A stretch of 49,186 nucleotides of DNA from Paracoccaceae bacterium (GTDB lineage: Bacteria > Pseudomonadota > Alphaproteobacteria > Rhodobacterales > Rhodobacteraceae). Below the pieces are notes generated by a model. It was not told the DNA's origin. It did no database searches and saw nothing but the letters and a program-made list of their open reading frames with translations. This document shows positions 15,690-47,803 of the stretch, in pieces; position 1 is the stretch's first letter; every line of letters starts with the position of its first letter. The DNA lies in assembly GCA_902633655.1 (NCBI GenBank), contig CACPHA010000005.1, positions 1-49,186 of the forward strand, written 5' to 3'. Both the position numbers and the translations under genes were made by a program.

Positions 15690-15727
15690 TAAAAACAATA
15701 ACCCAGCTTAGTTAGCAAGGAGATTTT

Positions 15728-18118: not shown

Positions 18119-18901
18119 ATGCATAACTTTGAATTCTTAAAACCTTCGACTGTTAAAGATGCGGTTGCGGCTCTAGATACAGAAGATGCCCAAGCGCTGG
18201 GTGGTGGGCAAACATTGATCCCTGCAATGAAGCAGCGACTTGCTGCACCAAAAAAGTTGGTTAGCTTGGGGGGTATTGCTGACCTGCAGGGCGTCAAAAT
18301 CTCTGGTGAGGTGGTATCTGTTGGGGGCTCAACTATACATGCGGAGGTTGCTGCCGCCAATGTATTCTCGGGTCTTAAATTGCTTGCCGGTGGTATTGGC
18401 GATCCAGCAGTACGAAATCGCGGAACAATCGGAGGGTCACTCGCCAATAACGATCCGGCAGCTTGTTACCCGGCAGCTGCTCTAGGCACAGGTGCAACCA
18501 TCATTACAAATACCAGGAAAATTGCAGCGGACGATTACTTTCAGGGGATGTTCACAACAGCATTGCATGAAGGTGAAATTATCACATCTGTTACCATGCC
18601 AGTCCCTGAGGTATCAAATTATCAAAAGTTCGAACAGCCTGCGTCGCGCTTTGCGCTTGTTGGAGTTTTTGTTGCAAAATATGCTGATTGGGTGCGTGTA
18701 GCGGTCACAGGCGCGTCCGAAGATGGAGTGTTTCGCTGGAGCGAAGCTGAAGCGGCATTTAGCGCGAGCTTCTCAGCCGATGCGTTGAGCGATCTTAGCC
18801 TTGATGCCTGTGGTATGATTGAGGATCTACACGGAAGCAAAGCGTATCGAGCGAATCTAGTCAAAGTTTTGGCGGGTCGCGCTGTAAGCGCCGCAAGCTA
18901 A
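18119..18901 (+). CDS. coxM: CoxM-like FAD-binding subunit of form II CO/xanthine dehydrogenase family
   Basis: This 260-residue medium subunit binds FAD and passes electrons from the iron-sulfur subunit. The two FAD motifs are visible as ALGGGQTLIPAMKQRL and RGTIGGSLANNDPAACYPAA; the second holds the usual TIGG. The protein ends near VLAGRAVSAAS. It starts 15 nt after the coxL stop and is followed by a strong terminator, closing the operon. The gene is intact, but without the large subunit it would have no redox partner. A form II assignment rests mainly on its operon. Confidence 0.9.
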   Translation: MHNFEFLKPSTVKDAVAALDTEDAQALGGGQTLIPAMKQRLAAPKKLVSLGGIADLQGVKISGEVVSVGGSTIHAEVAAANVFSGLKLLAGGIGDPAVRNRGTIGGSLANNDPAACYPAAALGTGATIITNTRKIAADDYFQGMFTTALHEGEIITSVTMPVPEVSNYQKFEQPASRFALVGVFVAKYADWVRVAVTGASEDGVFRWSEAEAAFSASFSADALSDLSLDACGMIEDLHGSKAYRANLVKVLAGRAVSAAS

Positions 18902-32652: not shown

Positions 32653-33563
32653 TGGCGAGCGAATTTGTAGCGCTTAGTTTAACGCCTGTTTTGATTGCAG
32701 CCTTCGCAGGAATGGCCTGTGCCTTACCTGGAAACTTTCTTGTTTTAAGAAAACAGGCTCTGATTGGAGATGCAATAAGCCATGTTATGCTGCCTGGGAT
32801 TGTTGTTGCCTATCTTATCTCAGGGCGCGTAACAACATGGCCAATGATGTTTGGCGCTGCTGGTGCCGCAATTGTTTCTGTCTTTCTGATTGAGATTATT
32901 CGTCGCTTGGGGCGGATCGAATTTGGAGCCGCGATGGGAGTCGTGTTTACCGCCATGTTTGCTGCTGGTGTCCTGCTTTTAGAGCAGTCAGAAACAAGTG
33001 AGGTCCATTTGGATGTAGAACATGCCTTATTTGGGAATTTAGAAATGTTGATATGGCTGCAATCGGATGGTTGGGGCTCTTTGCTTGATCTAAACGCGCT
33101 TGCGCAAATGCCACCCCAGTTCTTTAGAATGTTGACTGTTTTTTTGTTGATTTGCTTGTTCACATATATTTTCTGGCGTCCCTTAGTTTTGATCAGTTTT
33201 GATGAAGCATATGCCCGCACCATCGGAACACAGGCCCCTTTGATAGGATTACTTCTGGTAATTTTCGCTGCAATAACAGCCGTGGCGGCTTTTGATGCCG
33301 TTGGATCGATCATTGTAATTGCTATGATCCTGTGTCCCCCAGCTTCCGCCCGACTTTTGACCAACAATGTAAGGACGCAAGTATTTTTGAGTTTGGGTCT
33401 CGCGCTATCTGCCACTTTGGCTGGTTATATTTTGGCGAGTTATGCTCCTCTCTGGTTGGGATTTTCTGACACTGTGAGTGCGGCAGGGATGATTTCAACC
33501 CTTAGTGGAGTGTTTCTGGCTTTTTCAGCGGTCTATGGGCGACATCGGAAAAGAATTGTTTGA
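32649..33563 (+). CDS. sitD: Metal ABC transporter permease, second subunit
   Basis: This ABC-3 family permease of 304 aa has no C-terminal extension. LRKQALIGDAISHVMLPGIVVAYLI is the characteristic N-terminal signature; further membrane segments are visible throughout, including AAITAVAAFDAVGSIIVIAMILCPPASA. It probably pairs with sitC as a heterodimer. The start overlaps sitC (ATGA). A decayed gene begins right after the stop, and no terminator is apparent. Confidence 0.94.
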   Translation: MMASEFVALSLTPVLIAAFAGMACALPGNFLVLRKQALIGDAISHVMLPGIVVAYLISGRVTTWPMMFGAAGAAIVSVFLIEIIRRLGRIEFGAAMGVVFTAMFAAGVLLLEQSETSEVHLDVEHALFGNLEMLIWLQSDGWGSLLDLNALAQMPPQFFRMLTVFLLICLFTYIFWRPLVLISFDEAYARTIGTQAPLIGLLLVIFAAITAVAAFDAVGSIIVIAMILCPPASARLLTNNVRTQVFLSLGLALSATLAGYILASYAPLWLGFSDTVSAAGMISTLSGVFLAFSAVYGRHRKRIV

Positions 33564-33565
33564 TA

Positions 33566-33886
33566 GGAGCAAGACCGGAACAGGCAGTACTAACGCGCGA
33601 TACGGATATGACTAAGATTGAGCAAACGCGTAGTGCTATTGAAACATGGTCGGTGGTCTCAGCGATCATAGAATTGCAGATATAGGCGATTTTTTCAGAA
33701 CAATTTCGCTGGGTGGGCAATCAAGGATCCGGTCCCAAAGGTGGTTTGCGCGCCTTTCAGGAGAAGTGGCAAAAACCATTTTAAGCTGCGTTTTCGGGTA
33801 AAGTGTACATTGACGAAGTTCGTCTTTACATGGGTAAATAGGCAGCGGCGTTTTGCGGCCAAGAGGCCGTGCATAAAGGTGACTTC
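33566..33886 (+). pseudogene. SnoaL-like cyclase remnant, 3' end missing
   Basis: Read in the frame of the ATG at 33608, the sequence gives FRWVGNQGSGPKGGLRAFQ, WQKPF*AAFSGKVYIDEVRLYMGK* and GQEAVHKGDF. This follows the SnoaL-like/ester-cyclase family (usual text around KVYxDEVRxxMGEWAACFG, then EATHxGEFMG). Stops interrupt at 33683-33685 (TAG), 33782-33784 (TAA) and 33839-33841 (TAG). The last third of the domain is missing: the match ends near 33886, exactly where the opposite-strand desaturase remnant begins. It lies directly after sitD. Confidence 0.7.
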
Positions 33887-34744
33887 ATGATAACGATGAT
33901 TCAGCTGGTGGAAAAGTCTCCAATTTTAGCTCACCCTTTATCGGCAACGTAGAGCTTTTCAAATCCAGAATTTGAAAAAACTGCATGGATCAATTGGATG
34001 AAACCATGGAACATAATGTGCAGGGGGTGGGTTGGAACAAAAATGAATAATAAAATTGGTAGAGAAAAGCAGACAATCCACTGGGTGCATGGATATTACT
34101 GACCAGGGCCCAACGTTAACATTCCTATCATGTAGAGCATGGGAGATTCGGTATAGAGGTGGCCAGTGTAGTACTCCATGGACCCAGTAAAAATGAAAAC
34201 TGCCCCACAGTATAAAGAATGGAAACATGACAAATAATCAAAACGTTTTACCGGAAAAAGAATACCGGATCATACCTGTTTGCCATTGCCCAGAATAATA
34301 TACATTGGGCTACAGAGTCAGAGTTTGACACCACTCGCTAAAGTCTAAAACATATTATCATGGACCTGGTTTCTGAAGGTGAATGTTTCGTTGTTTTGCG
34401 TGGGTTGACGTGAATCAAACTTGAATGCTTTCTTTTGACTTTTTAATCGGCACAATCAGATATTCAGAAGTCCAGCACATATCGTGAGTGGGACAAAATT
34501 CGCAATCCAGACTTGTATGACCCATTTTAGTTCTACACTTTGCATAGTGGAAAGTGGGGGATGGATTATGAAATAGGCTACAACGGCTAAGACCACTGCT
34601 AGAGTGGTGGTTGCGGCTGCGAGCCAATAGGCTGAATACCAGTGCCATATTGCTAATGGTTTGGGCGGCCATTCAAAAATAGGATTTAACGCAATTGGTT
34701 TTGCGGGCCGGTAAAGCCAACGCTGAAGTTCAGAGTCGCTTTAA
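33884..34744 (-). pseudogene. Sterol desaturase/fatty acid hydroxylase remnant
   Basis: In the minus-strand frames, most of a sterol desaturase family protein can be followed. RWLYRPAKPIALNPIFEWPP and IWHWYSAYWLAA come first, then FTFRNQVHDNMF*TLASGV. In another frame WGSFHFYWVHGVLHWPPLYR, HALHDRNVNVGPWS and MHPVDCLLF appear, and finally SGFEKLYVADKG and FHQLNHRYHE. Damage includes a TGA (34458-34456), a TAG (34347-34345), more stops and at least one frameshift near 34320. The start codon is lost. The metal-binding histidines are also changed (HALHD for HALHH, HPVDC for HPVEH). The C-terminus is cut off at the junction with the SnoaL-like remnant. Confidence 0.82.
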
Positions 34745-34765: not shown

Positions 34766-35521
34766 CTATTGGCTGTAGTTGCAACCTTCTTCATCTAGAA
34801 TAGCTTTTAGTTCCTCAAAATGCCGTTGGTCTTGCTCTGCAAAAGTATCAAGCTGATCAGCTACCTTGGAAGCCACTTCATGGGATAAAACTTTAAGTTG
34901 TTGGCCTGTCTGCAATGCGCGGATATATGTTTCTGCGGCGCGTTCAAAATAGTATAGCCTATTAAAAGTATCGCCGACATTGGCGCCAATTATTAAAACC
35001 CCATGGTTGCCCATTATCATGACCCTTTTTTGGGGATCCTGAAGCATTGCAGCACAGCGTTCGCCTTCATCTTCAAAAGCAAGCCCCCCGTATTCATCGT
35101 CGATCACATACCGATCATAAAAAGCCGCACAATTTTGATCTATTGGTGGAAGCCGACTATCCTTAAGCGATGCTAGAACTGTGGCATGTATAGAGTGTAC
35201 GTGCATGGCGCATCTAGCGTGAGGACAACGGCGGTGGATTGACCCATGTAATCCCCAGGCTGTTGGATCTGGAGCATTAGGTCCGGACAGAGTTTCTGGG
35301 TCATTGGCATCGATCTCAATGATATCGCTTGCTTTTATCCGAGCGAAATGGCTCTGATTGGGATTCATTAGAAATTTGGTGCCATCTTCATTTATAGCAA
35401 GTGAAAAATGATTTGCGACACCTTCATGATAGTTTAAGCGCTCAGTCCAGCGAAATGCAGCAGCTAAATCAACACGTTCCTTCCAGTAACCCATGTTCAG
35501 TCTGATATGTGAGATGGACAT
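34766..35521 (-). CDS. Class II aldolase/adducin family protein
   Basis: This 251-residue protein has the zinc-dependent class II aldolase fold. Zinc ligands are suggested by MHVHSIHATVL (His-x-His) and a later His in MGNHGVLIIG; the N-terminal NHFSLAI segment aligns with the substrate loop. The family includes fuculose- and ribulose-phosphate aldolases/epimerases and decarboxylases, so the reaction cannot be fixed. It stands alone, with the desaturase remnant downstream and a long AT-rich gap upstream. The gene appears intact. It could once have worked with the lost neighbours, but this is speculation. Confidence 0.88.
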   Translation of the reverse strand: MSISHIRLNMGYWKERVDLAAAFRWTERLNYHEGVANHFSLAINEDGTKFLMNPNQSHFARIKASDIIEIDANDPETLSGPNAPDPTAWGLHGSIHRRCPHARCAMHVHSIHATVLASLKDSRLPPIDQNCAAFYDRYVIDDEYGGLAFEDEGERCAAMLQDPQKRVMIMGNHGVLIIGANVGDTFNRLYYFERAAETYIRALQTGQQLKVLSHEVASKVADQLDTFAEQDQRHFEELKAILDEEGCNYSQ

Positions 35522-36150
35522 CTCTTGTCTCCCCTTTTTTAACTATAGACCCTCTTTTTTTAATTTTACGAACGTTACATTAGTTTAGTATGCTCGCGCC
35601 AAAGGTATCACATTTTAACTAAACTTACACTTCAACTGGCTTTGAAGGTACCCTAGAACATCAAGTTTTTGATAAACTATCATAGGCCTACAGATATTGA
35701 TTTTTGCCTTGCGTCTCTTAAAGATTATTTAATCACAAACTTTGGATTAAGCTTGGATCTATAAGTGTAAAATTTATATCGCATCAGTTCAATTCTTACA
35801 TATATAATTTTATTTGTTCTAATGCAGGTTTTGTTAACTAAGGGCGAAAAGATACCTTATTGTGGTTCTATGTAGTTTGCTGTGGCCAAAAAATAAAAGA
35901 AATCCATGGTTCAAGAATTTTTCTCATTGGCAAACAGTAAACGGAGCGATTAAGGAAAATAGACATTCAATACCTCCAGGCTTCGAAATTTTGCAGTTTT
36001 CAGTGGCCCGGATCCATATAATTTGGTTAAACATGGGAATAAAGGATGTAAATTGCAAATTAAAGTACGCTAATTGTTGTATTAATAAACAACATTCAGT
36101 TAAAGTCTGCCAATGAGGACACAAATCTTGGGCAGCTTAGGAGAAAATTA
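35522..36150. other. Long AT-rich intergenic region upstream of HU
   Basis: About 630 nt with no gene recognised. A plus-strand frame at 35862-36116 gives no family resemblance and is judged chance. In many proteobacteria lon precedes an HU gene, but no Lon remnant was found. The region ends with TTAGGAGAAAATTA, the ribosome binding site of the HU gene, so it must contain that gene's promoter. Confidence 0.55.
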
Positions 36151-36438
36151 ATGTCTAAACCAATGACAAAAACACAGTTGGTAGCAACACTCGCTGATGA
36201 AATGGGTTCAGATAAAAAATCAGCAGGCGGGGCGCTTGACGCAGTTTGTAACATTATCACTAGGGAAGTTTCTGGAGGTGGTGCTGTAACTTTGCCTGGA
36301 GTTGGGAAAATTTCGTGCAGGGAGCGTCCGGAGCGGATGGTAAGAAATCCTGCCACTGGTGAACAGTTTAAAAAGGAAGCGGACAAAGTTGTTAAGATGA
36401 CAATTGCCAAGGCACTTAAAGATAGCGTCAACGGCTAA
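36151..36438 (+). CDS. hupB: HU-family nucleoid DNA-binding protein
   Basis: This 95-residue histone-like protein bends DNA as a dimer. TKTQLVATLADEMGSDKKSA is the N-terminal helix pair, and LPGVGKISCRERPERMVRNPATGE is the beta-arm signature, with the proline tip in RNPATGE. AGGAGA precedes the ATG at good distance and a terminator follows, so it is a single-gene unit. Intact and of normal length. Confidence 0.94.
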   Translation: MSKPMTKTQLVATLADEMGSDKKSAGGALDAVCNIITREVSGGGAVTLPGVGKISCRERPERMVRNPATGEQFKKEADKVVKMTIAKALKDSVNG

Positions 36439-36463
36439 TTCACTTGATAAAACTTAGAGTAGG

Positions 36464-36487
36464 AGGGTCGCAGCAGCGGCCCTTTTC
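36464..36487 (+). terminator. Rho-independent terminator after hupB
   Basis: An 8-bp stem (AGGGTCGC, loop AGCA, GCGGCCCT, one T-G pair) begins 26 nt after the HU stop and is followed by TTTTCATTTTTTTT. Confidence 0.87.
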
Positions 36488-36537
36488 ATTTTTTTTGACA
36501 CGTGCGACCAGGATGATTGGGTTTTTGGAGATTAGTG

Positions 36538-37416
36538 ATGGACCTTCGTGCCATTTTTATGGGTGTTTTATTTTCGTTGATCTGGTCGTCAGCTTTTAGT
36601 TCTGCGAAAATAATTGTCGCTGTTGCACCGCCCTTGCTGACCTTATCAATAAGGTTCTTTATAGCTGGTATAATTGGTGTGTGTATCGCCCGGTTCCTTG
36701 GTCAAACCTATTATCTTACAAGAGGCCAATGGAAAGCAACGATCATTTTTGGAATTTTCCAGAATGCCCTCTACCTGGGCTTAAACTTTTTGGGTATGCA
36801 GACCGTTGAGGCTTCACTTGCCTCTATAATTGCATCATCGATGCCCTTGATGGTGGCGTTTGCAGGATGGGTGATATTCCGAGAGCGTTTGTCCTTGCTA
36901 GCAAGTGTCGGATTATGCCTGGGTTTTCTGGGCGTTGCTATGATTATGAGGCTCAGGATTACGGATGGTGCAGATAGCTATGGAATTGTTCTTTGCATGA
37001 TCGGTGCGGTGGCATTGACGGTTGCAACTCTTGCGGTGCGGGGTGCAAGTGAAGGTGGCAATGTGATGATGGTTGTAGGGTTGCAGATGATCATCGGAGC
37101 TGTATTCCTGGCCATAGCTGGCGCTTTATCAGAAAGTATTTATGTGACTTGGAGCTGGCCCTTCATTCTTGCATTTTTATACACAACCCTGATACCTGGT
37201 CTAGCTGCGACATTTATATGGTTCATGTTAGTAAATCGGATTGGCACCGTTAAAGCAGCAACATTTCATTTTCTTAATCCATTTTTTGGAGTTGTAATTG
37301 CTTCATTCGTATTGGGGGAAGCGATGAGTGTAGTAGATTTTGTAGGAGTAATTGTCATAACTATTGGTATCTTGGCAGTTCAAATGTCTAAAAAATCTTA
37401 TTTAGGCGGTGGTTAG
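36538..37416 (+). CDS. EamA/DMT-family transporter
   Basis: This protein of about 293 aa of the drug/metabolite transporter superfamily has roughly ten hydrophobic segments in two EamA repeats. The first is around LIWSSAFSSAKIIVAVAPPL to GWVIFRERLSL. The second ends around TFHFLNPFFGVVIASFVLGE, typical of such exporters. The ATG at 36538 with GGAG 7 nt upstream is chosen over a TTG at 36517. The substrate is unknown. It converges with aroC, whose stop is 13 nt away. Confidence 0.9.
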   Translation: MDLRAIFMGVLFSLIWSSAFSSAKIIVAVAPPLLTLSIRFFIAGIIGVCIARFLGQTYYLTRGQWKATIIFGIFQNALYLGLNFLGMQTVEASLASIIASSMPLMVAFAGWVIFRERLSLLASVGLCLGFLGVAMIMRLRITDGADSYGIVLCMIGAVALTVATLAVRGASEGGNVMMVVGLQMIIGAVFLAIAGALSESIYVTWSWPFILAFLYTTLIPGLAATFIWFMLVNRIGTVKAATFHFLNPFFGVVIASFVLGEAMSVVDFVGVIVITIGILAVQMSKKSYLGGG

Positions 37417-37429: not shown

Positions 37430-38536
37430 CTACCCAATAGAACCATAAGTACTCTCACCCATCTGACCCCGGTGCAGTAGAAAGTGATCAAGAAGTACAC
37501 ACGCCATCATGGCCTCTCCGACTGGTACAGCACGGATCCCAACGCATGGGTCATGTCGGCCCTTTGTAATTACTTCAATGGGTTCGCCTGAATTCGTTAT
37601 GGATTTCCGAGGTGTCAGAATGGAAGAGGTTGGTTTTACTGCAAAGCGAACAATAACATCCTGCCCGGTGGAAATTCCCCCCAAAATTCCACCTGCATGG
37701 TTCGATGAATAAGCAGGTTCCCCATTGCTATCCATGAATATCTCGTCCGCGTTAGCTGAACCTGTCAAGTTGGCGGAGGCCATCCCTTCACCAATCTCAA
37801 CCCCTTTCACCGCGTTGATTGACATCATTGCTGCCGTTAAGTCCGCATCTAGTTTGCCGTAGATCGGCGCACCTAGCCCAACTGGCATGCCTTTAGCCAC
37901 GACTTCAATCACGGCACCAACAGAGTTATGGTCCTTACGAATATCGTCTAGGTAGGCGGCCCAGTCAAGAGCCGCCTTTTCATCGGGCACCCAAAAAGCG
38001 TTTTGATGTATTTGATCTATATCAAAATTTTTACGATTTATTCGCAGTTCACCCATTTGTACCATGTAACCTTTAATGCTCAGGTCTGGTAAAAGTTCCC
38101 TTAAAGCGGCGCGGGCGATACCACTGGCTGCGACACGGGCAGCCGTTTCGCGTGCAGAAGACCGGCCGCCACCGCGATAATCCCGTATCCCATATTTTTG
38201 CCAGTATGTAATATCTGCATGCCCTGGCCGAAAAGTTTCTGAAATATCCCCATAGTCCTTGGATCTCTGATCTATATTGCGGATCATAAGCTGAATGGGC
38301 GTACCGGTTGTTTTACCTTCAAAGACGCCTGAAAGAATTTTTACTTCATCAGCTTCACGGCGCTGAGTGGTGAATTTGTTTTGACCTGGCTTTCGTTTAT
38401 CTAACCAGTTTTGGATTTGGTTTTCGTTAATACTGATCCCGGCAGGACAGCCGTCAACTGTAGCGCCTAATGCTGGCCCATGGCTTTCGCCCCAGGTTGT
38501 AACTCGGAACAAATGTCCGAAACTGTTTAAGCTCAT
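37430..38536 (-). CDS. aroC: Chorismate synthase
   Basis: AroC makes chorismate from EPSP with reduced FMN (368 aa). The sequence starts [30 protein letters not shown], with GESHG the family signature. [35 protein letters not shown] follows, and the C-terminal part has [19 protein letters not shown]. The gene is complete, and the gap upstream (38537-38683, AT-rich) probably holds its promoter. aroE lies at 10232-11065. Confidence 0.97.
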
Positions 38537-38683: not shown

Positions 38684-39409
38684 TTATAAACTCATTCCTC
38701 CAACGCTTGCACCGCCACAGACGTAAAGTGTCTGGCCAGTAACAAAGCTATTTTGGGGATCACAAAAAAACAAAAATGCTCTAGAGACATCTTGGGTAGT
38801 ACCCAATCTGCCCACCGGGATGCGTTTTTTTAGGCTTTCTTCTTGTTCACTGCCCTTTTCGATTAAACCCCAGAAATTGTCGGTCTGTATGGGGCCAGGT
38901 GCCACAACATTAACCGTGATACCATGGGGGGCTAATTCCAACGCCCAGGTACGGGCCATACCAGTGATACCTGCTTTGGTAGAGCTATAAGCAGTCCTAC
39001 TAGGCAAGCCAAGGGCAGCGCGTGACCCGTTAAAAATAACGCGACCAAAACGGCGTTCTTTCATTCTGGGCAAAACTGCTTTAAGTAGCGAGAGTGCCGA
39101 ACCAAGGTGAAGTTGTGCAAGCTCCCTAATATCACTTGGATTTGTTTCCTCAATTAGATTAGGCCAGATCAGGCCCGCATTGTGGATCAGATGGGTCACA
39201 TTGTGAAGCTTTTCTACTTGTTTGGCAGCTAATGCAACTGCCCCATCATCAAAAAGGTCAACTTCAATTGAAAATAAGTTTTCATCAGTTACCTTGGGAG
39301 CGTTACGAGACATGGAAATGACTCTATACCCCTGAATAAGCAGCCGTTTAGCTAGGTCCGCACCTATTCCTTTATTACCTCCTGTTATCAATGCAGTATA
39401 TTTGGTCAT
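38684..39409 (-). CDS. Short-chain dehydrogenase/reductase, last gene of the catabolic operon
   Basis: This canonical SDR has 241 aa. The cofactor loop is TGGNKGIG (residues 9-16), NAGLIWP the NNAG-type motif, the catalytic Ser is in FNGSRAALG, and YSSTKAG carries Tyr-x3-Lys. The C-terminal RIPVGRLGTTQDVSRAFLFF is typical of 3-oxoacyl-ACP/cyclohexanol-type reductases. It is seventh and last in the 38684-46072 operon and starts inside the stop of the cyclase-family gene (ATGA). A likely role is oxidation of a hydroxy or dihydrodiol intermediate; the substrate is unknown. Confidence 0.92.
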   Translation of the reverse strand: MTKYTALITGGNKGIGADLAKRLLIQGYRVISMSRNAPKVTDENLFSIEVDLFDDGAVALAAKQVEKLHNVTHLIHNAGLIWPNLIEETNPSDIRELAQLHLGSALSLLKAVLPRMKERRFGRVIFNGSRAALGLPSRTAYSSTKAGITGMARTWALELAPHGITVNVVAPGPIQTDNFWGLIEKGSEQEESLKKRIPVGRLGTTQDVSRAFLFFCDPQNSFVTGQTLYVCGGASVGGMSL

Positions 39410-40194
39410 GTGTTACCTCCTGGAATCATCGCCATGACCCGAAGTGGGCTTCCGGTGCCATCCTTAATTTTCAAGGGAGCAGCAAGAAGGATGGCACCTG
39501 TCGGAGGCAGCTGGTCCAGATTGGCCAGACACTGAAGCCCATATTTCCCAGCGCCATGAAGGAAGTAATGCGCAGGATACGGTGGATTATAATGGCCTCC
39601 TTGACCAGCATCTGTACCAACGGTTTCCGTACCAAACCCGCGAATATCCCTCTCTTCAATCAGAAAACGGATTGCTTCGGGCGTTGGGCCGGGAGAGTGT
39701 GGCCCGTCTTCACGCATGTTGAGGTAGTTCCGTCCCGACTTCTTAGACCAGTCTGTGCGCATAAGCACCCAACACCCATTTGGAATTTTTCCGTAATTAC
39801 TTTCCCAATCAGATATGAAAGGTGCAGTAAGTTCGAAATCTTCATCCATTGCGGCGCCTAGGGTGCAATCAATCACAACAACAGGTCCTATAAACTGTTC
39901 AGGGGCGATGGCATCCACTGAATTATCTGGTAGATCACGACCTGAAATCCAATGTGAAGGTGCGTCAAAATGTGTGCCTGTGTGTTCGGAAAGGGTCAGG
40001 TTATGCCATTTCCAAGCAGGACCTCTATGATCATAGGCACTAAGTTCTTCCATCCGAAATCGGGCGCATTGATTAAATTCTGGCGGAAGAATAATGACTG
40101 GAAAATCAGGATCTAGCGTGTGAGTAAGATCTACGATTTTCACACTTCCGTCTGCGATTGCGGTTGCGAGCTTCGTCAGGAGCTTCATGCTCAT
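39406..40194 (-). CDS. Cyclase-family (kynurenine formamidase-like) metal hydrolase
   Basis: This 262-residue protein of the cyclase/KynB superfamily carries the hallmark SEHTGTHFDAPSHW, whose histidines and Asp bind metal. VDLTHTLDPDFPV lies near the N-terminus and GTETVGTDAGQG near the C-terminus. Members hydrolyse formylkynurenine, isatin or ring-opened products, so it may cleave a cyclic intermediate in this operon. Both junctions (with the DUF35-SDR gene and the SDR gene) are 4-nt overlaps. Intact. Confidence 0.9.
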   Translation of the reverse strand: MSMKLLTKLATAIADGSVKIVDLTHTLDPDFPVIILPPEFNQCARFRMEELSAYDHRGPAWKWHNLTLSEHTGTHFDAPSHWISGRDLPDNSVDAIAPEQFIGPVVVIDCTLGAAMDEDFELTAPFISDWESNYGKIPNGCWVLMRTDWSKKSGRNYLNMREDGPHSPGPTPEAIRFLIEERDIRGFGTETVGTDAGQGGHYNPPYPAHYFLHGAGKYGLQCLANLDQLPPTGAILLAAPLKIKDGTGSPLRVMAMIPGGNT

Positions 40195-41447
40195 GGGCCC
40201 TCTCCAGCAAGTGTCATTTCACGTTCCAGGATGTGGGGGCTTTCCCTGAAGCGTTCGAAGAGATCTTTGGCCACATCTCCGCAATAGGTTTCTTCAAGTC
40301 CATTCCGTAGCCCTTCTACAAGGTTTTTGGCTACTGTTTCTGGTGAGACTTTTGGAGGTGGTAAAGGTTGATACCAGTCGTCCTCCGTTGGGCCGCAATA
40401 AATGTTCATGACTCTAAGACCAGCGGTGCGAAATTCTGCCCTGAGAGATTGGCTCAAAGATCGCGCTGCCGCGTTAGAGGCAGAATAGCACCCATATTGG
40501 GGATTATTTGACAGCGAATGAACTGACAGAATATTAACCCAAGCAACTGCCGCATTTTCACCATCAGCTGTTCGAGTGCACATAGCAGGGCCAAAAGCCT
40601 GTGCCAAGCGCATCAGCCCGAAGTAATTCACCTCGATCTCTTCTTTTGCCATTGCAGTATCGCCCCGCACAAAGACTCCGCCTGGGCGAACAAAGTGGGC
40701 ATTATTAATTAAGATATCGGTCTTCCCACCAATAGCGCCTGCAAGTTTTTGAACTGATTGCGTGTCTGTTACGTCTAGGGGAAGCACCTCGACTTTATCC
40801 AGTTGGGCAACGGCCTCTTGTCCAGGGTAGGGGCGCCAATTTTCCGATTCACCGATAAAGATTAGAGACGCTCCCGCAGCAGCTAAAGATTTAGCAATAT
40901 AGGGTGTATTTGGGTTGCGGGCATCTGTGATTAGGATTCGCCGGTGTTTCGGGTCGCTGGTCATCGCTCTAAGTTGTGGGTCGTCTTCCATATATAGGCT
41001 CCGCTTTTGGGGAAGTGCGAACAGAACAGCCTGTCCAGATCGATCAAGCCGATTGATGATTTGCACACGGCCATTCCGCTCACAATCACCATGAAGGTGA
41101 CAGATAATCACTGGCCCTGAATCAAGTTTAACGGTGCCAGTGCGCCAGGGGGTCCGTTCACGAAAATAGGGCTTAATTGATGTGCGTAACCTCGTTTCTG
41201 CAAGGATGCTGCCCAGGCAGTCTGTATCTTTCCACCTGAGTTCAGTGGATAAGCAATTACTACAAGCATCACGTGGCGGATACTGAATTTTCCCGCACTC
41301 GGTACATTGCTGAAGGGCAAAACGCCCTTCAGCTGCGGCTGCGCTCAGCCCAAGTGCAGCTCGGCTACGAGCCTCTGGCGGGCGTGTTGGTGAAACAGTA
41401 CGCTTTTGCGGATCTTTTCTTGGTGGTGGTAAAAGTGGGTTTGTCAT
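40191..41447 (-). CDS. DUF35 (zinc ribbon plus OB-fold) fused to a degenerate SDR
   Basis: This 418-residue fusion has a proline-rich leader, then a rubredoxin-like zinc ribbon (C48-x2-C51, C62-x2-C65 in QCTECGKIQYPPRDACSNCLS), and an OB-fold part to about residue 155. An SDR-like domain (about 165-400) follows. DUF35 proteins usually partner thiolase-fold enzymes, here encoded just upstream. The SDR half has lost its key features: the glycine loop reads ITDARNPNTP instead of TGxxxGIG, and Tyr321-x3-Asn325 (YSASNAA) replaces Tyr-x3-Lys. ILINNAHF and the serine in NILSVHS remain. It is probably structural or altered in function. Both neighbours overlap it by 4 nt. Confidence 0.85.
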   Translation of the reverse strand: MTNPLLPPPRKDPQKRTVSPTRPPEARSRAALGLSAAAAEGRFALQQCTECGKIQYPPRDACSNCLSTELRWKDTDCLGSILAETRLRTSIKPYFRERTPWRTGTVKLDSGPVIICHLHGDCERNGRVQIINRLDRSGQAVLFALPQKRSLYMEDDPQLRAMTSDPKHRRILITDARNPNTPYIAKSLAAAGASLIFIGESENWRPYPGQEAVAQLDKVEVLPLDVTDTQSVQKLAGAIGGKTDILINNAHFVRPGGVFVRGDTAMAKEEIEVNYFGLMRLAQAFGPAMCTRTADGENAAVAWVNILSVHSLSNNPQYGCYSASNAAARSLSQSLRAEFRTAGLRVMNIYCGPTEDDWYQPLPPPKVSPETVAKNLVEGLRNGLEETYCGDVAKDLFERFRESPHILEREMTLAGEGP

Positions 41448-42619
41448 GGGTTAGCCGCCTTGAGAATAGCTGCACCTGAGCAAACTCCGCGGTCATAGTT
41501 GATCATACCAAAGCCTGATACAAGCGCAATTTTTGCCCCACCTACTTGTGTCCCTCCGGCCTGTTGCGAGACTTGCCGTATCGCTTCTACCAATCCAATA
41601 AATCCACCGGCTGCTCCTGCCTGCCCTGCGGAGAGCTGACCGCCAGAGGTATTGTGGGGGAAATCCCCTTTGATCGTCATATCTTTACCACTTAGAAAAT
41701 GAGGCGCTTCGCCTTTTCCGCAAAATCCAAGGTCTTCGATCTGCATGGCGACAATGACGGGGTAATCATCATAGGTTTGTACAACGTCTATTGCATCCGG
41801 ACTGCAGTCCGCCATGTCCCAAAGTTCATCGACATCTACAGTCCACCCACCTCTGAGCTGGATTGGATCTTCAGCGTGGGCATTGTGTCTTTCTATCGTA
41901 CCAGCAATGCGTGCAAAGGGTATCTTGCGACGTTCAGCCTCTTCTTGCCGCATTACGAGGAAAGCGTCAGATCCGGCACAGGGCATAACACAATCAAAGA
42001 GGGCGATTGGGTCGGAAATGGTTTTTGCCTTCATATAATCGCTTAGAGAAAGAGGCTTTTTCATTACGGCGCCGGGATTTAAAAGTGCATTTTTACGTTG
42101 TGCAACGCATATTCTGCCAAAATCTTCGCGAGTGGCGCCAAATTCCTGCATGTAGCGATCTGTGAGAAGTGCGAAATTAGTATTTGGTCCGCCGTAGCCA
42201 TAGGGGTAGGAGGCGTCAGACGCAAAGCGTGAAAAGCTTGAGAGCATTAGCCGAAAACTGTCGATATGGTTAGTATCCCCTGCAACACATGCCACAATAT
42301 CCGAATCTCCGCACTGTACCGCACGAGCAGCGCGTCGCAGCGCTACGACACCGCTCGCTCCACCCATTGGGATATGATCGAGCCAGCGGGGAGAAAGACC
42401 AAGGTGTTGAGTCAGACCAACCGCAGTGTCAGGAAATAGTGTAAAGCTTGAAACTGTGAATCCGTCTACATCAGCTGGTTGTAAGCCCGCAAGACTAAGG
42501 CTACCCTTCAGGGCTCGAGCTATCCACCAATGAGCGGTTTTGATAGAATACCGCTGATAAGGCATCGAGAATGGTGCTGTAAGCACAATACCTTCATATG
42601 ATCGGCGCCGCTGCATCAA
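41444..42619 (-). CDS. Thiolase-fold protein lacking the nucleophilic cysteine (Ltp/SCP-x-like)
   Basis: This 391-residue thiolase-like protein is of the SCP-x/Ltp branch. YDDYPVIVAMQIEDLGFCGKGE matches the YDxFT...LEDLGFC element, and HNTSGGQLSAGQAGAAGGFI with the GFGMINYDRGVCSGAAIL end is typical of this branch. Where degradative thiolases have C-A-S-G, this protein has G87-A-S-G (IPMGGASG), so it lacks the acylatable cysteine. Ltp2-type members of this kind act as retro-aldolases together with a DUF35 protein, and a DUF35 fusion follows immediately. A carbon-carbon lyase for a CoA thioester is the best inference. Confidence 0.85.
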   Translation of the reverse strand: MMQRRRSYEGIVLTAPFSMPYQRYSIKTAHWWIARALKGSLSLAGLQPADVDGFTVSSFTLFPDTAVGLTQHLGLSPRWLDHIPMGGASGVVALRRAARAVQCGDSDIVACVAGDTNHIDSFRLMLSSFSRFASDASYPYGYGGPNTNFALLTDRYMQEFGATREDFGRICVAQRKNALLNPGAVMKKPLSLSDYMKAKTISDPIALFDCVMPCAGSDAFLVMRQEEAERRKIPFARIAGTIERHNAHAEDPIQLRGGWTVDVDELWDMADCSPDAIDVVQTYDDYPVIVAMQIEDLGFCGKGEAPHFLSGKDMTIKGDFPHNTSGGQLSAGQAGAAGGFIGLVEAIRQVSQQAGGTQVGGAKIALVSGFGMINYDRGVCSGAAILKAANP

Positions 42620-44238
42620 ATAGTCTGCCTTTTTTTCAGATGTGCCGTAGTGATCGTATTTGGCTCGTCCAACAGTATTACCGCATTTTTTTTTAATTCT
42701 GTCCTTTCAATTTTCTGGGTGGCTGTAAGAGGCAATTCATTTACAAAGCAAACAAAACCTGGGGCCTTATAATAGGCCATCTCCACCAAGCACCATTCCA
42801 TAACTTCAATTGCCGTATCTTTTGATGGAAGTTCAGTGATTATGAAGGCAAAGACTTCTTCCCCTCTTATGGGATCTGGGACTGAAGTAACTCCCACAGA
42901 AGAAACTGCAGGATGGCGTAAGAGAACGGATTCTACCTCAAGGGCGGCAATATTTTCACCGGATCGGCGAATGATGTTTTTCTTACGATCAACGAAGAAA
43001 ACATTTCGGTTTTCTTCTTGTCGCACCATATCACCGGTGTGAAACCAACCATCTTTCCAGGCCTCTTCGGTTGCTTCAGGATCCTTATAATAATGGGAGA
43101 AAAATCCATATCTTGGATTGCCCGAGGAGCGCCGAACAAGCAATTCGCCAGGCATATTTTCGGGGACATCATTCCCATACTCATCAATAATTTTGCATTC
43201 AATATCTTGTCCAGGTTGTCCTAGACAGGATTGACCTATCAAACGATCTGTAGTGCTTGCCGCTATTACAGCGCCAGCGCCCGTTTCGGTCATGGCCCAG
43301 GCTTCGACAAGCGGTATGCCGAAACGTTTTTCAAATGCGCGATGTAATTTTGGATCAATGCCTGCACCAAATCCAAATCGAACGGAATGTAGTTTTTCTT
43401 CAAGGCAAGGTTTTATACTCATTAGGAGGGTAGGCATCACTCCAAGATAGTGTAGGCTGGTGGCTCTGGACTGCGATACATCAGCCCACCATGTATCGGG
43501 ATGGAAGCGATCAAGTGCGATCAGGCAACCACCAATCCGTACCATCGCCATAAAGGAGTATGCCATAGCGTTCATATGAAACATCGGCAAAGGTGTGATC
43601 ATCCGTTCGCCTTTACGTGATAGGCTGGCCAAGCCCCCTACATTTGCATACCAATCGCCTGCCAAGAGAAAATATGTATTTGGCAAAACACACCCCTTTG
43701 GTTTTCCAGTAGTTCCGGAGGTATACAGAAGGGCTGCTTCTTGCGTCTCTTCGTTTTTATATTTGGTTACGACGCCGCAACTGGAGGGAGGTTCAATTGG
43801 ATCATTTGGCCCAATAACTTTCACGCTTAACGGTACGGACTTGCTTGCTCTTTTGAGTTCGTCCTGGCGGGATGCAATAGTGATAATAAGCGCTGGCTCG
43901 GAATGACTTATTAGGTATGTAAGTTCTGTAATGCGCAGATCAGGGTTGATTGGCACAACTGATATGCCAAGCCGATTCAATGCCAGCCAGATCAAAAAGT
44001 AAATTGGTCTATTTTGCAATAGCATGGCGACCCGCATGCCCCTTTGGTAACCGGCCCTATCGAAGGCCTTGTGATATTGCAAGACGCGTTTAAGTGCTGC
44101 TTCATAGCTGATTGCTCCAGGCTCAATTTCATAAATTCTTGCCGTTTCTGGCATAACTTCAAGAAAATCTCGTTCTGGCCACTGTTTTGCTGTTTGTTCA
44201 AAAGCAGCAAAGACGGATTTTGGCTCGGGCAGAGTCAT
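42616..44238 (-). CDS. Acyl-CoA synthetase (class I adenylate-forming)
   Basis: This 540-residue AMP-forming ligase has the P-loop-like LLYTSGTTGKPKGCVLP, an aromatic-rich substrate/nucleotide region around EAWAMTETGAGAV, and GWFHTGDM with the conserved Asp. DRKKNIIRRSGENIAALEVE is the hinge, and PLTATQKIERTEL contains the catalytic C-terminal lysine. It would activate a carboxylic acid to its CoA thioester. In this operon it follows the dioxygenase and precedes the thiolase-fold protein, with 4-nt overlaps on both sides. The substrate is unknown; the closest resemblance by eye is to crotonobetaine/carnitine- or fatty-acid-type ligases. Confidence 0.92.
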   Translation of the reverse strand: MTLPEPKSVFAAFEQTAKQWPERDFLEVMPETARIYEIEPGAISYEAALKRVLQYHKAFDRAGYQRGMRVAMLLQNRPIYFLIWLALNRLGISVVPINPDLRITELTYLISHSEPALIITIASRQDELKRASKSVPLSVKVIGPNDPIEPPSSCGVVTKYKNEETQEAALLYTSGTTGKPKGCVLPNTYFLLAGDWYANVGGLASLSRKGERMITPLPMFHMNAMAYSFMAMVRIGGCLIALDRFHPDTWWADVSQSRATSLHYLGVMPTLLMSIKPCLEEKLHSVRFGFGAGIDPKLHRAFEKRFGIPLVEAWAMTETGAGAVIAASTTDRLIGQSCLGQPGQDIECKIIDEYGNDVPENMPGELLVRRSSGNPRYGFFSHYYKDPEATEEAWKDGWFHTGDMVRQEENRNVFFVDRKKNIIRRSGENIAALEVESVLLRHPAVSSVGVTSVPDPIRGEEVFAFIITELPSKDTAIEVMEWCLVEMAYYKAPGFVCFVNELPLTATQKIERTELKKNAVILLDEPNTITTAHLKKRQTI

Positions 44239-44717
44239 GGAAGTAGCTGTATGTTTCCAAAAGCGGCGTCAGAATTCAGTAAGTCAACGCGCTTGTTTGC
44301 AATGCGTAAACTTCCCTTTATCCGCTTTAATTCATGGGTTGCGGTCAGTGCCAAAAGAAACTGTTCATCCAGTCGCGTTTCCACATAGTGCATTGAGGTA
44401 TTTGTCACATAGTGACCTTCTTTATTGTCGAGTTTGTCGACAAAAGGACGTTGAATCACGTGGTGACAGCGGCTTTTTGGTTTTTGGCTAAAGGTACGTG
44501 CTCCGTTCAACCGTTCCACGCGCAGTTTAAGCATAAACATATCCTCATACATTAACGAGGTAACAAAAAGCGGATCATCCTGTTTATAATCCAGTGGCAT
44601 CCAGTAATGTCCATCCGGAATCCAAAGTTTGAGCCAATCATCATAATGCCCTTCATCCAGCATTCTGGCTTCGGCATAGATAAAGTCAATCAAATCATCT
44701 TTGGATATGTCGCTCAC
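44235..44717 (-). CDS. Ring-hydroxylating dioxygenase beta subunit
   Basis: This small structural subunit of a Rieske oxygenase is about 160 aa from a GTG at 44717. A longer frame from 44780 is open, but the GTG overlaps the alpha stop by 4 nt (GTGA) as at the other junctions, and gives SDISKDDLIDFIYAEARMLDEG, the usual beta start. WIPDGHYWMPLDY and the C-terminal LRIANKRVDLLNSDA are typical of SnoaL-fold beta subunits. It would form an alpha3beta3 enzyme with the alpha subunit. Its stop overlaps the acyl-CoA ligase start (ATGA). Confidence 0.92.
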   Translation of the reverse strand: MSDISKDDLIDFIYAEARMLDEGHYDDWLKLWIPDGHYWMPLDYKQDDPLFVTSLMYEDMFMLKLRVERLNGARTFSQKPKSRCHHVIQRPFVDKLDNKEGHYVTNTSMHYVETRLDEQFLLALTATHELKRIKGSLRIANKRVDLLNSDAAFGNIQLLP

Positions 44718-46072
44718 TCTGCGGCCTCTATGGCACTGACTGTACTTTGTGGCATTGTAGTAGTCATAAAGCGTCGCCAAGCATCGAATTGGTTTCGCAT
44801 TTGCCGCTCTGTTGTCCCATTTTCTACGGCTTCTTTAGAAAAGTCTTCTTCTTTTCCCGGATAAAGCCTCTGCAAATTCACCCACTCGATTCCATCGGAC
44901 ATCAAGCCCTCTTGGGCACGTTCATACATTTCAAGATCATCATGTCCTACTATCGATGTTGGTGCATTGATCATCCGATTATACATTGCTGTACGTGCCA
45001 AAAGTTCATCAGGAGCGTCTATCAGACGGTAAATATAGCTTTCAACAAGGGTTTTGTCTGGGCTTAGCGGTATGAAGTTGCGTAGCTGCTGAATAGGTCC
45101 TTTGACCATGATAGAAGGAAAATAAATCGTGTTGTGACGGTTTTCATCCAATATGCTTTTTGCACGGCTCTCGCCATATGCTTTACTCATTGCTTCAAAG
45201 TATCCTGGTATCGCTGAGTAGTCAGAGTGAATTGAATGGTTTACTCCTGTATGCCCATGACCATTGGGCCAAGTACGAATTCCCATATCTTCGAAAAACG
45301 CGTAGGGAGACATGAATGGTGCAATAATCTGCATGGCTGGAGGCTGGGGTTTAGGGCTGCCCAGTTTTTTCCAAATCTTTTTAGCAGTTCCCGCAGAGCT
45401 TTCATGAGCTACCATGGGGTGGCAGGTGTCTGTTTGATTCTCAACCAGCATTTTCCAATTACACTTATGCATGTAGCGCAAAGGTGGCCCTGCAACCTCT
45501 AGCTTCCCTGCAGGGGAGCGATCCACCATGTTATCAATGGATGAAAGACTATCTAGGAAAAATTCTTCAAAATCGATACCTTCCTTTGCTAGGCGGGCAA
45601 ATATAAAGCCACGATAATTTTTGACAGCGCCGACAGCTTTCATACCTTTTGAATTTTCATTTTTATCGAGTCCTGTGCCTTCATAGCCATTTTTCAGAGG
45701 TATAGCGAGCAGGCATCCGTCAGTCTTAAAAGACCATGCGTGGTAGGGACAACGGAAAAATTTACCAGTATTACCTTCACGGTCGAGGGCAATCTTTGTA
45801 CCTTTGTGCGGGCATCGGTTGTGTAAAACTTTAACTCCATTGTCGGTATGGCGGACTTGTATAACGGGTTGATTGCCAATCTGTGTCGTGAAGTAGTCAC
45901 CTTGTTTAGGGGTTTGGCTCTCATGGCCTACAAAAACCCAAGTGTTTGCAAATAGATGGCGCATTTCTAGTTGATAGACTTCATTGCTAGTATAGACATC
46001 GCGATGAACTTGATAGCCCTGCACCATGGAATCGATGTCTTCAGCTTTAAGTGTAAGGCGCGTCTCAAGCAT
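44714..46072 (-). CDS. Ring-hydroxylating dioxygenase alpha subunit (Rieske)
   Basis: This 452-residue catalytic subunit has Rieske ligands C87-x-H89 (NRCPHKGT) and C108-x2-H111 (FRCPYHAWSF). The mononuclear iron site has D215-x2-H218-x4-H223 in NQTDTCHPMVAH. The long C-terminal domain ends IEAAE. GGGGGAAAG precedes the ATG at 46072. It heads the operon that ends at 38684. It would hydroxylate an aromatic or cyclic substrate with O2, NADH and an electron-transfer partner, but the reductase upstream is broken, so it must borrow another or be inactive. The alpha subunit is intact. Confidence 0.92.
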   Translation of the reverse strand: MLETRLTLKAEDIDSMVQGYQVHRDVYTSNEVYQLEMRHLFANTWVFVGHESQTPKQGDYFTTQIGNQPVIQVRHTDNGVKVLHNRCPHKGTKIALDREGNTGKFFRCPYHAWSFKTDGCLLAIPLKNGYEGTGLDKNENSKGMKAVGAVKNYRGFIFARLAKEGIDFEEFFLDSLSSIDNMVDRSPAGKLEVAGPPLRYMHKCNWKMLVENQTDTCHPMVAHESSAGTAKKIWKKLGSPKPQPPAMQIIAPFMSPYAFFEDMGIRTWPNGHGHTGVNHSIHSDYSAIPGYFEAMSKAYGESRAKSILDENRHNTIYFPSIMVKGPIQQLRNFIPLSPDKTLVESYIYRLIDAPDELLARTAMYNRMINAPTSIVGHDDLEMYERAQEGLMSDGIEWVNLQRLYPGKEEDFSKEAVENGTTERQMRNQFDAWRRFMTTTMPQSTVSAIEAAE

Positions 46073-46156
46073 GTCTTTCCCCCGCTACAAATCAAGCACA
46101 AGCTGTGGTGACTTAGCGTGGCTGAGTCATATTTGCATGAGTTCTCCCTCAGCATG

Positions 46157-46325
46157 CTATGCATCTGAAGGCACCACATTACGGATGACTGTCATCCCCC
46201 TGATAATGTTGGTTTGGCAAATACCATAATCGCCACGCTGGCGTTCATAGAAGTTATCTTTGCCTTTTGCGTCTAGAACGTCAATGACGGACTTATCTGT
46301 TTGGACTTTGAATATCTCTCTTTTT
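46157..46325 (-). pseudogene. Remnant of a dioxygenase reductase (2Fe-2S C-terminus)
   Basis: A short minus-strand stretch reads EIFKVQTDKSVIDVLDAKG, then NFYERQRGDYGICQTNIIRG and a TAG at 46159-46157. This follows the C-terminal plant-type ferredoxin domain of phthalate/vanillate-type reductases (usual xSCxQGDCGICQTxxxxG). Two cluster cysteines appear as tyrosines, and upstream frames are broken by stops. The FAD and NAD domains are not recognisable in 46326-46495, although weak fragments may be there. It lies just upstream of the dioxygenase alpha gene, its expected place. Confidence 0.65.
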
Positions 46326-46495
46326 TAGTAGATCAGCCTAAAAAGTTCGCGACTTGTTGTACTTTCAAGTTTGGAAAACAATTCAAGCAGGGTTTGTACT
46401 CTGTGAGGACCAGCCGGTTATGAGGTATGTTTTTTAGTTCTGCTAAGACCGCTGAAAAGTGTGCCTTTATTTGGTAGAAAAAGGTATTTTGCAGA

Positions 46496-47803
46496 TCACA
46501 CTAATCCCGTTAAATCAAACTTTTCGTGTGGAAAATATTTTTCTAATCGAATATCGGCTGATCGTGCGTGCCCTTCCATTCCCTCGAGACGAGAAATACG
46601 GGCTGTTGCTACAGCAACTTGCTTGGATCCCTCACGGGTCGCCCTCTGCCATGTGACAATTTTCATAAATTTATGGACTGATAAACCACCAGTATAAGAT
46701 GCTGCGCCTGAGGTCGGAAGCACATGATTGGTTCCCGATGCTTTATCACCATATGAAACAGTTGTTTCCTCACCTAGAAATAAGGAACCGTAGCAACTAA
46801 GCCTATTAAACCACCAATCTAAATCATTGGCTTGTACGGTGAGGTGCTCTGGAGCATAGCTATCTGCAGTTGCTGCCATTTCTTCCCGATTTTGGCATAA
46901 GATAACTTCAGCATAATCCCGCCATGCTGCAAGTGCATTATTTCTGTTAAGCTCTGGCAAGTCTTCAATTAATCTAGGAACCAAGTTCAAAATTTTTTCC
47001 GCCAGAGAACGGGTATCTGTTACAAGCCAGACGGGCGAGTTATAACCATGTTCAGCTTGGCTGACTAAATCAGTTGCGACAAAAAGTGCATCGGCACTTG
47101 CATCGGCAAGGATGCAGCTGTCTGTTGGGCCGGCGAGCATGTCAATACCAACCTGTCCAAAAAGTTTGCGTTTTGCTTCTGCAACATATTGATTTCCTGG
47201 CCCAACCAGGATATTCGCTTTAGGCAATCCAAAAAGTCCATATGCCATTGCTGCCAGACCTTGTACTCCACCCATTGCAAGTATCTGATCCGCTCCACAA
47301 ATATGCGCTGCATAGATGATTGCAGGTGTGATGCCGATCTTAGGGGCTGGTGGGGAGCATGCGATAATATGTTTGCATCCTGCAACTTTAGCAGTTGTAA
47401 CCGTCATTATTGCGCTAGAAATATGGCTGTATCGGCCGCCTGGCACGTAACAACCTGCTATGTTTATTGGAATCGCTTTTTGGCCAAGAATCAAACCTGG
47501 TTCTACTTCGTATTCAAAGTTGGAGACGGTAGATTTCTGAGCTTCGGCAAACCTCCTTACATTGTTATGACTGGACAGTATATCTGCTTTGAGTTTATCT
47601 GAAACTAAACAACTTGCATAATCAATTTCTTGCCGTGACAAAATAGCCGGCCCGTTATAACGATCATATAGCGCTGAATACTCCAAAGCTTTCGTTTCAC
47701 CTCCCGATTCAATATCGGCAAGAATAGTTCGGACAGTTGTACTTACTTCAGGTGGGTCTGATTTTGAAGTTAAAGTTGCTTTTTTTAGGTATTCATAAGC
47801 CAT
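46496..47803 (-). CDS. hpsN: HisD-like NAD-dependent dehydrogenase (HpsN/sulfopropanediol type)
   Basis: This 435-residue member of the histidinol dehydrogenase superfamily resembles (R)-sulfopropanediol 3-dehydrogenase (HpsN) more than true HisD. AGCYVPGGRYSHISSAIMTV, GVQGLAAMAYGLFGLPKANI, VGPGNQYVAEAKRKLFGQVG and GIDMLAGPTDS are all present, with SYAPEHLTVQ and TRISRLEGMEGHAR-like text at the end. GGAG precedes the ATG. HpsN oxidises dihydroxypropanesulfonate, a marine organosulfur compound, but no other hps gene is visible here. Other alcohols are possible, and it stands alone between the TerC gene and the reductase remnant. Confidence 0.8.
   Translation of the reverse strand: MAYEYLKKATLTSKSDPPEVSTTVRTILADIESGGETKALEYSALYDRYNGPAILSRQEIDYASCLVSDKLKADILSSHNNVRRFAEAQKSTVSNFEYEVEPGLILGQKAIPINIAGCYVPGGRYSHISSAIMTVTTAKVAGCKHIIACSPPAPKIGITPAIIYAAHICGADQILAMGGVQGLAAMAYGLFGLPKANILVGPGNQYVAEAKRKLFGQVGIDMLAGPTDSCILADASADALFVATDLVSQAEHGYNSPVWLVTDTRSLAEKILNLVPRLIEDLPELNRNNALAAWRDYAEVILCQNREEMAATADSYAPEHLTVQANDLDWWFNRLSCYGSLFLGEETTVSYGDKASGTNHVLPTSGAASYTGGLSVHKFMKIVTWQRATREGSKQVAVATARISRLEGMEGHARSADIRLEKYFPHEKFDLTGLV

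Follow-up and report, generated by a model that had tools for sequence, protein, structure and literature searches.

An iad-type auxin-degradation operon that appears to have lost its reductase gene in a Paracoccaceae bacterium, and a suggested retro-aldol role for IadG and IadH

The DNA analysed here, called the window below, is a stretch of 49,186 nucleotides from a draft genome of a Paracoccaceae bacterium (assembly GCA_902633655.1, contig CACPHA010000005.1), and it carries seven open reading frames (ORFs) on its minus strand from position 46072 down to 38684. A sequence-only reading had taken them for one catabolic operon of no pathway that it recognised. By sequence comparison they are iadD, iadE, iadF, iadG, iadH, iadI and iadJ of the iad locus for degradation of indole-3-acetate (IAA, auxin), in the same order as in Variovorax. 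We think it likely that they represent the catabolic core of an iad-type IAA operon that underwent a deletion of about 2.3 kb, in which the oxygenase IadDE works with a reductase acting in trans and the IadG-IadH pair performs a retro-aldol cleavage. Two points would go beyond published knowledge, namely the loss of reductase and regulator in one copy of the operon and a chemistry of IadG and IadH that differs from the published scheme.

Identity and layout of the operon

The same genes, iadD to iadJ, have been described in Variovorax paradoxus CL014 (PMC12633357, PMC9613470, PMC10374108). The idea of an undescribed pathway was given up because the alpha subunit matches IadD, the cyclase matches isatin hydrolase A and PMC12633357 describes the genes. 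That the seven genes form one operon serving one pathway fits the iad operon, and so does the chemistry guessed for them (ring oxygenation, CoA activation, C-C cleavage, hydrolysis and oxidation), with the indole acid IAA as the cyclic acid. For Variovorax the assigned roles are reductase (iadC), oxygenase (iadD and iadE), acyl-CoA synthase (iadF), acetyl-CoA acetyltransferase (iadG), alcohol dehydrogenase (iadH) and dehydrogenase (iadJ), and iadI is annotated as a kynurenine formamidase (PMC12633357). Anthranilate was lowered by deleting iadCDE as a unit, or iadF, iadG, iadH, iadI or iadJ singly; in this work by others the steps of IadCDE and IadJ were shown, and IadF, IadG, IadH and IadI were shown to be needed (PMC12633357).

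Comparing the alpha subunit with characterised enzymes, as the sequence-only reading had proposed, gave Variovorax IadDE as the closest solved relatives. The top PDB matches of window IadD are 7yls/8h2t and 9o71 (E about 1e-165), and 9o71 is IadDE of V. paradoxus CL014 (PMC12633357). The names 7yls and 8h2t are absent from the available main text of PMC10374108; the letters of 7yls_B agree at all 14 IadD residues numbered in that paper. Aligned with 7yls_B, window IadD is identical at 240 of 428 residues (56%), and it keeps all Rieske and iron ligands and eight of the nine residues of the IAA pocket, two of the eight doubling as iron ligands. These eight are identical in all 13 IadD proteins compared, and the sole change, Leu211 to Gln, is common to all 13 as well. 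Window IadE has 7yls_A as its top PDB match and is also matched in 9o71 (E 1.3e-38); iadD and iadE are adjacent and orthologous to Variovorax IadDE.

The window thus shares with the Variovorax locus (iadC-K2) the enzyme types from D to J and the IAA pocket; it differs in having no intact iadC, no adjacent MarR gene, no recognised iadK2 and Gln at pocket position 211. The search for the same synteny elsewhere, also proposed beforehand, was positive. The order C-D-E-F-G-H-I-J was seen in two Variovorax-like genomes (L105, L106) whose IadD is 94% identical to 7yls_B, and the iad operons of Roseibium, Sulfitobacter, Paracoccus and Ruegeria (plasmid records) and of two related genomes (G006, G004) have the order of the window with mostly the same overlaps. 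In both Variovorax-like genomes another iadD-iadE pair (L105 4203-5947, L106 3597-5350), 56-57% identical to 7yls_B, lies some 10 kb away from the first.

All seven ORFs are present with the domains first named for them (Pfam search; Table 1), without an internal stop in 2,464 codons; the PF01796 score of window IadH is slightly under the family cut-off. A 4-nt ATGA or GTGA overlap had been claimed at all six junctions. It is clear at five, being GTGA at D/E and ATGA at E/F, G/H, H/I and I/J. F/G reads TTGATG, which allows iadG to start at TTG with a 4-nt overlap or at the ATG at 42616 with a 1-nt overlap, the two starts being equally likely. Among same-strand neighbour pairs outside the operon, 24 of 138 (17%) permit a 4-nt overlap; this background comes from 16 stretches of the same genome (the window and 15 of 20 kb), with a crude ORF picker and ATG, GTG and TTG counted as starts. 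The probability of at least five overlapping junctions out of six is about 8e-4 if junctions are independent, and therefore the run of overlaps exceeds chance. A start giving the 4-nt overlap is also present in 11 D-J loci that share ancestry and so are not independent cases (D/E 11, E/F 10, G/H 11, H/I 10, I/J 10), and at F/G in seven of ten judgeable loci. Annotated starts differ in places: D/E overlaps by 1 nt in Roseibium, and E/F has a gap in Paracoccus. Strict translational coupling with fixed stoichiometry was an overstatement, as the overlaps are compatible with coupling and F/G is ambiguous.

Table 1. Features of the iad region and its neighbours (window coordinates)
Feature	Position	Strand	Description	Basis
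iadD	44714..46072	-	Rieske oxygenase large (alpha) subunit, 452 aa	PF00355 + PF00848; 7yls/8h2t, 9o71
iadE	44235..44717	-	Rieske oxygenase small (beta) subunit, 160 aa, GTG start	PF00866; 7yls_A
iadF	42616..44238	-	AMP-forming acyl-CoA ligase, 540 aa	PF00501 + PF13193; position in conserved order
iadG	41444..42619	-	thiolase-fold protein without nucleophilic Cys	PF22691; alignment to Ltp2 6ok1 + thiolases
iadH	40191..41447	-	ChsH2-type zinc ribbon/OB (DUF35) fused to degenerate SDR, 418 aa	PF12172, PF01796, PF00106
iadI	39406..40194	-	isatin hydrolase A relative, 262 aa	PF04199; 5nnb
iadJ	38684..39409	-	SDR, intact TGxxxGIG + YxxxK, 241 aa	PF13561/PF00106
iadC remnant	46088..46426	-	C-terminal ferredoxin domain of PDR/VanB-type reductase	tblastn
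hisD-family gene	46496..47803	-	upstream neighbour, same strand	TIGR00069
aroC-like gene	37430..38536	-	downstream neighbour; also adjoins iadJ in G006	name read from sequence by eye

The missing reductase gene and the state of the operon

The seven-gene unit was correctly described as to its genes; the decayed reductase gene directly upstream of it had been overlooked. Between hisD and iadD lies an iadC remnant of 113 codons with four in-frame stops (one TGA, one TAG, two TAA). It matches residues 210-310 of Roseibium IadC at 42% (tblastn) and, at 44%, IadC of G006, a genome of the same genus, where it covers the last 115 residues; of the four motif Cys, three have been replaced or lost. Some two thirds of the gene is gone, and no intact iadC stands next to iadD in the window. 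In all 13 iadD loci iadC lies upstream of iadD, full or nearly full in 11, as a 3' part at the record start in L021, and as the remnant in the window. The gene is kept in all the compared operons of Roseibium, Sulfitobacter, Paracoccus, Ruegeria, G006 and G004 (one cut by the record start), whereas the window retains its last third as a pseudogene.

In G006 the order is hisD, an alcohol dehydrogenase gene (ADH), a divergent MarR gene, iadC-J and aroC. ADH follows hisD in five of five same-genus genomes with the locus, two of which (G003, G005) have a short-chain dehydrogenase/reductase (SDR) gene in between; no close hisD match was found in G002. A divergent MarR gene stands beside the iad operon in G006 and G004, directly before iadC, as it does in Roseibium and two Sulfitobacter. 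A search of the window for the ADH and the MarR gene gave no match to either, and the best match to MarR within its own draft genome is 29% identical. Because the G006 operon occupies the same place between hisD and aroC, and ADH follows hisD in relatives, the simplest history for the window would be a single deletion that began just behind hisD and ended within iadC, about 2.3 kb long by comparison with G006. Such a deletion would have taken the ADH gene, the divergent MarR gene, the pre-operon region and the first two thirds of iadC. An assembly error at this place is unlikely in view of the four stops and three lost Cys codons.

We file this copy, from its gene content, as a reduced member of the iad operons, without reductase and regulator and otherwise intact, because in Variovorax iadDE suffice for IAA loss and iadC speeds the pathway; iadDE alone degrade IAA there more slowly (PMC9613470, PMC12633357). 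The seven genes are probably still used, with a reductase from elsewhere and perhaps with transcription read through from hisD, since four stops have accumulated in the 113 remnant codons and none in the 2,464 codons of the operon.

Several observations weigh against continued use with a borrowed reductase. IadD/E are inactive in vitro without IadC, and iadC is strictly required in some strains (PMC10374108); iadDE work in one Escherichia coli strain and not in another (PMC12633357). The draft genome is 55.6% complete, so that a trans-acting reductase, a regulator, a transporter and a route for anthranilate can be called neither present nor absent, and a relative of IorA was not found in this incomplete draft. 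The only other reductase-like match in it (36%) falls within an open frame of 1,070 aa on contig C41 (G000:C41:15678-16583), a possible electron donor for IadDE. Before iadD no sigma-70-like promoter was found (chance alone would give 1.4), and the single terminator-like site, in the 3' end of hisD, is near chance level. Relaxed selection on the window operon is possible: its IadD, IadE, IadF, IadH and IadJ are 3-5 points less like the Roseibium proteins than are the G006 copies, IadG is 1 point less like and IadI is not. For most pairs among the window, G006, G004 and Roseibium dS had reached saturation or could not be computed; the comparison therefore relies on identities and intact frames and not on dN/dS.

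Taken further, these points would mean that the operon is non-functional or dying, yielding no useful product for lack of reductase, regulator and promoter, and that its seven ORFs have merely not decayed so far. The iadC pseudogene, the loss of the MarR gene and pre-operon region, and the dependence on IadC in vitro and in certain strains speak for this, together with another broken gene in the window (a Mo-hydroxylase large subunit) and signs of decay in related copies. In G004 (L017, G004:C237) the last sixth of iadF contains an in-frame stop at 5739-5741, after which the frame is open again; this is either a sequencing error or early decay. In G001 a divergent MarR gene, now broken, directly follows hisD-ADH at the site of the iad operon in G006 (L091, G001:C1:79000-93000, 3118-3524); this draft, 84% complete, gave no close IadH or IadD match, and the broken gene is likely the scar of a lost iad operon. 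A contig of a Rhodobacter-labelled metagenome-assembled genome (L014 2270-7906) gave no match to iadD, carries iadC and iadE in truncated form and has a broken frame in iadJ. Yet in the window seven full-length ORFs with intact catalytic motifs, where tested, stand beside a remnant with four stops in 113 codons, and Variovorax iadDE alone still degrade IAA (PMC9613470, PMC12633357). We regard a dying operon as unlikely, while taking it seriously.

Proposed carbon-carbon cleavage by IadG and IadH

If the operon is still in use, the most likely course of the pathway is as follows. With electrons from a reductase encoded elsewhere IadD/E would oxygenate IAA, and IadJ would oxidise the hydrated product to dioxindole-3-acetate (DOAA). 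IadF would convert DOAA to DOAA-CoA, a tertiary beta-hydroxyacyl-CoA, which IadG, docked on the DUF35 part of IadH, would split by a retro-aldol reaction into isatin and acetyl-CoA. IadI would then open isatin to isatinate, and further enzymes would lead to anthranilate. The trans reductase and the retro-aldol step are what we infer from the present analysis. In the literature searched, one paper, a review, contains the terms indole-3-acetic acid, retro-aldol and isatin together. In the published pathway oxidation ends at dioxindole-3-acetic acid, and IadF, IadG and IadH are then proposed for a "reductive removal" of the acetyl group; the word "aldol" is absent from the available text (PMC12633357).

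A retro-aldol step is suggested by what is missing from both proteins, the thiolase Cys in IadG and the cofactor and catalytic motifs in the SDR half of IadH. In an alignment to Ltp2 (6ok1) and thiolases the column of the nucleophilic Cys holds Gly in window IadG, and the Cys is missing from the motif in 34 of 34 IadG homologues; L022 IadG has a Cys two residues further on, and L067 IadG aligns poorly there. Thiolytic cleavage by IadG was dropped as a candidate on this ground. The motifs TGxxxGxG and YxxxK are textbook signatures of SDRs. Neither occurs in the SDR half of any of 33 IadH homologues, the Variovorax-like L105 and L106 included, which have Phe and Lys where the Tyr/Lys pair is expected; the four zinc-ribbon Cys are kept in all 33. 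The intact SDR IadJ served as control: all 20 homologues have YxxxK, and 18 of them have TGxxxGIG, the other two having SGxxxGIG. An AlphaFold model of IadH (5-sequence alignment) reached a mean pLDDT of 48.6 and a pTM of 0.46, too poor for a fold search.

The pair resembles the steroid side-chain aldolases Ltp2-ChsH2(DUF35) and Sal-Shy. Ltp2 with the DUF35 domain of ChsH2 cleaves a tertiary alcohol, and Sal, a homologue of Ltp2, binds the DUF35 domain of Shy (PMC11321319). IadG and IadH have the sequence-level traits of an Ltp2-type aldolase, a Cys-less thiolase fold as in Ltp2 and a ChsH2-type partner domain, here too fused to another enzyme domain. They differ in their substrate, an indole acid and not a steroid, and in the fused domain, an SDR and not a MaoC. 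The fused domain of ChsH2 is catalytically inert (PMC11321319), and the same seems to hold for the SDR half of IadH. Against the analogy, DUF35 is reported to be dispensable for Ltp2 activity (PMC11321319), and its role may be limited to holding the complex together. The IadG-Ltp2 alignment matched one Tyr position and left unmatched another region, which in Ltp2 holds a catalytic Tyr.

Isatin as the cleavage product would agree with the gene that follows, which codes for a relative of isatin hydrolase. Window IadI matches isatin hydrolase A (5nnb) at E 2.6e-145 and keeps the metal motif HxGTHxDxPxH. The 5nnb protein itself shares 246 of 257 residues with IadI from the iad operon of Roseibium aggregatum. 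From this 96% identity we take 5nnb to be the Labrenzia enzyme, Roseibium aggregatum being the same species as Labrenzia aggregata. Isatin hydrolysis has been shown by others for the crystallised relatives of IadI (5nnb, 5nna; PMC6117287); the same paper mentions isatin in IAA breakdown of Bradyrhizobium, and the terms "operon" and "gene cluster" are absent from its available text. A search of the main texts of openly available papers did not find "isatin hydrolase" together with "iadI" or "auxin degradation". Not every IadI need be an isatin hydrolase, because the His that follows TDAGQ is missing in two of 30 (L068, L069).

The published scheme has IadG as a ketothiolase and IadH as an alcohol dehydrogenase that remove the acetyl group reductively, and IadI as a broad amidase. 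It draws on the annotations and on the build-up of C8H7NO2 in an iadI deletion; that this compound and not isatin is reported after IadFGH counts against isatin as the product (PMC12633357). The residues that such roles would call for are, however, absent from IadG and IadH in all homologues compared, IadI is close to isatin hydrolase A, and C8H7NO2 may be isatin reduced off-path in the cell. We hold the scheme to be improbable at these steps, and IadG and IadH are likely misassigned in it. A related substrate such as a halogenated IAA or another indole or oxindole acid is very doubtful, for although Leu211 of the Variovorax pocket is Gln in the window protein and its relatives, the rest of the pocket and every metal ligand are unchanged, DOAA and isatin suit the enzymes that act downstream, and IadCDE turn over 4-Cl-IAA less well and IBA and IPA not at all (PMC10374108).

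IadG and IadH also occur apart from the oxygenase. Seven stretches of 17-25 kb (L019, L024, L066, L068, L069, L070, L071) have both and no recognised iadD, iadE or iadJ, and iadI is present in six of them (all but L071), so G-H-I looks like a portable module. That the pseudo-SDR of IadH pairs with IadJ, as ChsH1/ChsH2 might suggest by analogy, was set aside because G and H occur without J. We lean towards the view that operons with iadG-H-I use retro-aldol cleavage with the SDR half of IadH as a pseudoenzyme scaffold and G-H-I as a portable unit, which would here be combined with a borrowed reductase after the deletion. The modules of L068, L069 and L070 adjoin Asp/Glu racemase genes, and that of L068 lies near genes for a 3-hydroxyanthranilate dioxygenase and an indolepyruvate ferredoxin oxidoreductase.

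With these assignments an operon that looked unknown gains a likely substrate, a solved enzyme, isatin hydrolase A, is tied to its operon, and a precise and testable correction is offered for the least-understood iad steps. Auxin degradation is placed in lineages with marine relatives. IAA has been studied as a signal between algae and bacteria in marine settings. The copy without reductase offers a natural experiment on whether other reductases can serve IadDE, and the iad pathway is being engineered into root bacteria (PMC12633357).

Distribution and other features of the window

The full seven-gene order is one of several forms of the iad locus. We tabulated 32 stretches, the window included, nearly all found via IadH and hence unfit to test the generality of the gene set; 13 carry iadD, and all 13 also have iadE to iadI. 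Twelve of these have iadJ, which in L017 is cut by the contig end. They include two gammaproteobacteria, Aestuariivita, Roseibium, Sulfitobacter, Paracoccus and Ruegeria. When IadD was searched against 397 genomes of the phylum, nine matched at E <= 1e-100, the window's own genome included. The eight other loci, judged within about 19 kb, comprise three with the full D-J order, two C-D-E-J without F-G-H-I nearby (L107, L108), one C-D-E-F-J (L110), one C-D-E (L112, its IadD at 42% to Variovorax) and one D-E (L109); seven of the eight have iadC, which is absent from the L109 stretch. IadH matched at E <= 1e-60 in nine of 387 sampled genomes of the window's class, its own included, and at E <= 1e-20 in eight of 61 relatives, full-length in five (G000, G004, G006, G033, G020) and with the SDR half only in three. 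An IadH relative occurs in 35 plasmid records, with a match spanning at least 80% in 34 of these; 34 plasmid records have IadD at E <= 1e-100, including Variovorax, Pseudomonas and Pantoea. Both the relatives of the operon and the gene content of the window point to an alphaproteobacterium.

A cytochrome P450/oxidoreductase gene follows the iad region of Roseibium (L020 18801-21119). An Rfam search of the window gave no match. At 35521-36541 and 33560-33889 the window differs from G006: it lacks AMP-nucleosidase-like and VOC-like genes between a class II aldolase and a DMT transporter, and its SnoaL-like match is partial, with gene names read by eye from the sequence; these differences would be further signs of local gene loss. 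On the plus strand, the large subunit of a Mo-hydroxylase of the CO-dehydrogenase/xanthine-dehydrogenase family (15690-18104) is broken: it has an early in-frame stop, and its reading frame shifts between 17040 and 17128. Its neighbours, the 2Fe-2S subunit (15207-15689) and the FAD subunit (18119-18901), are open.

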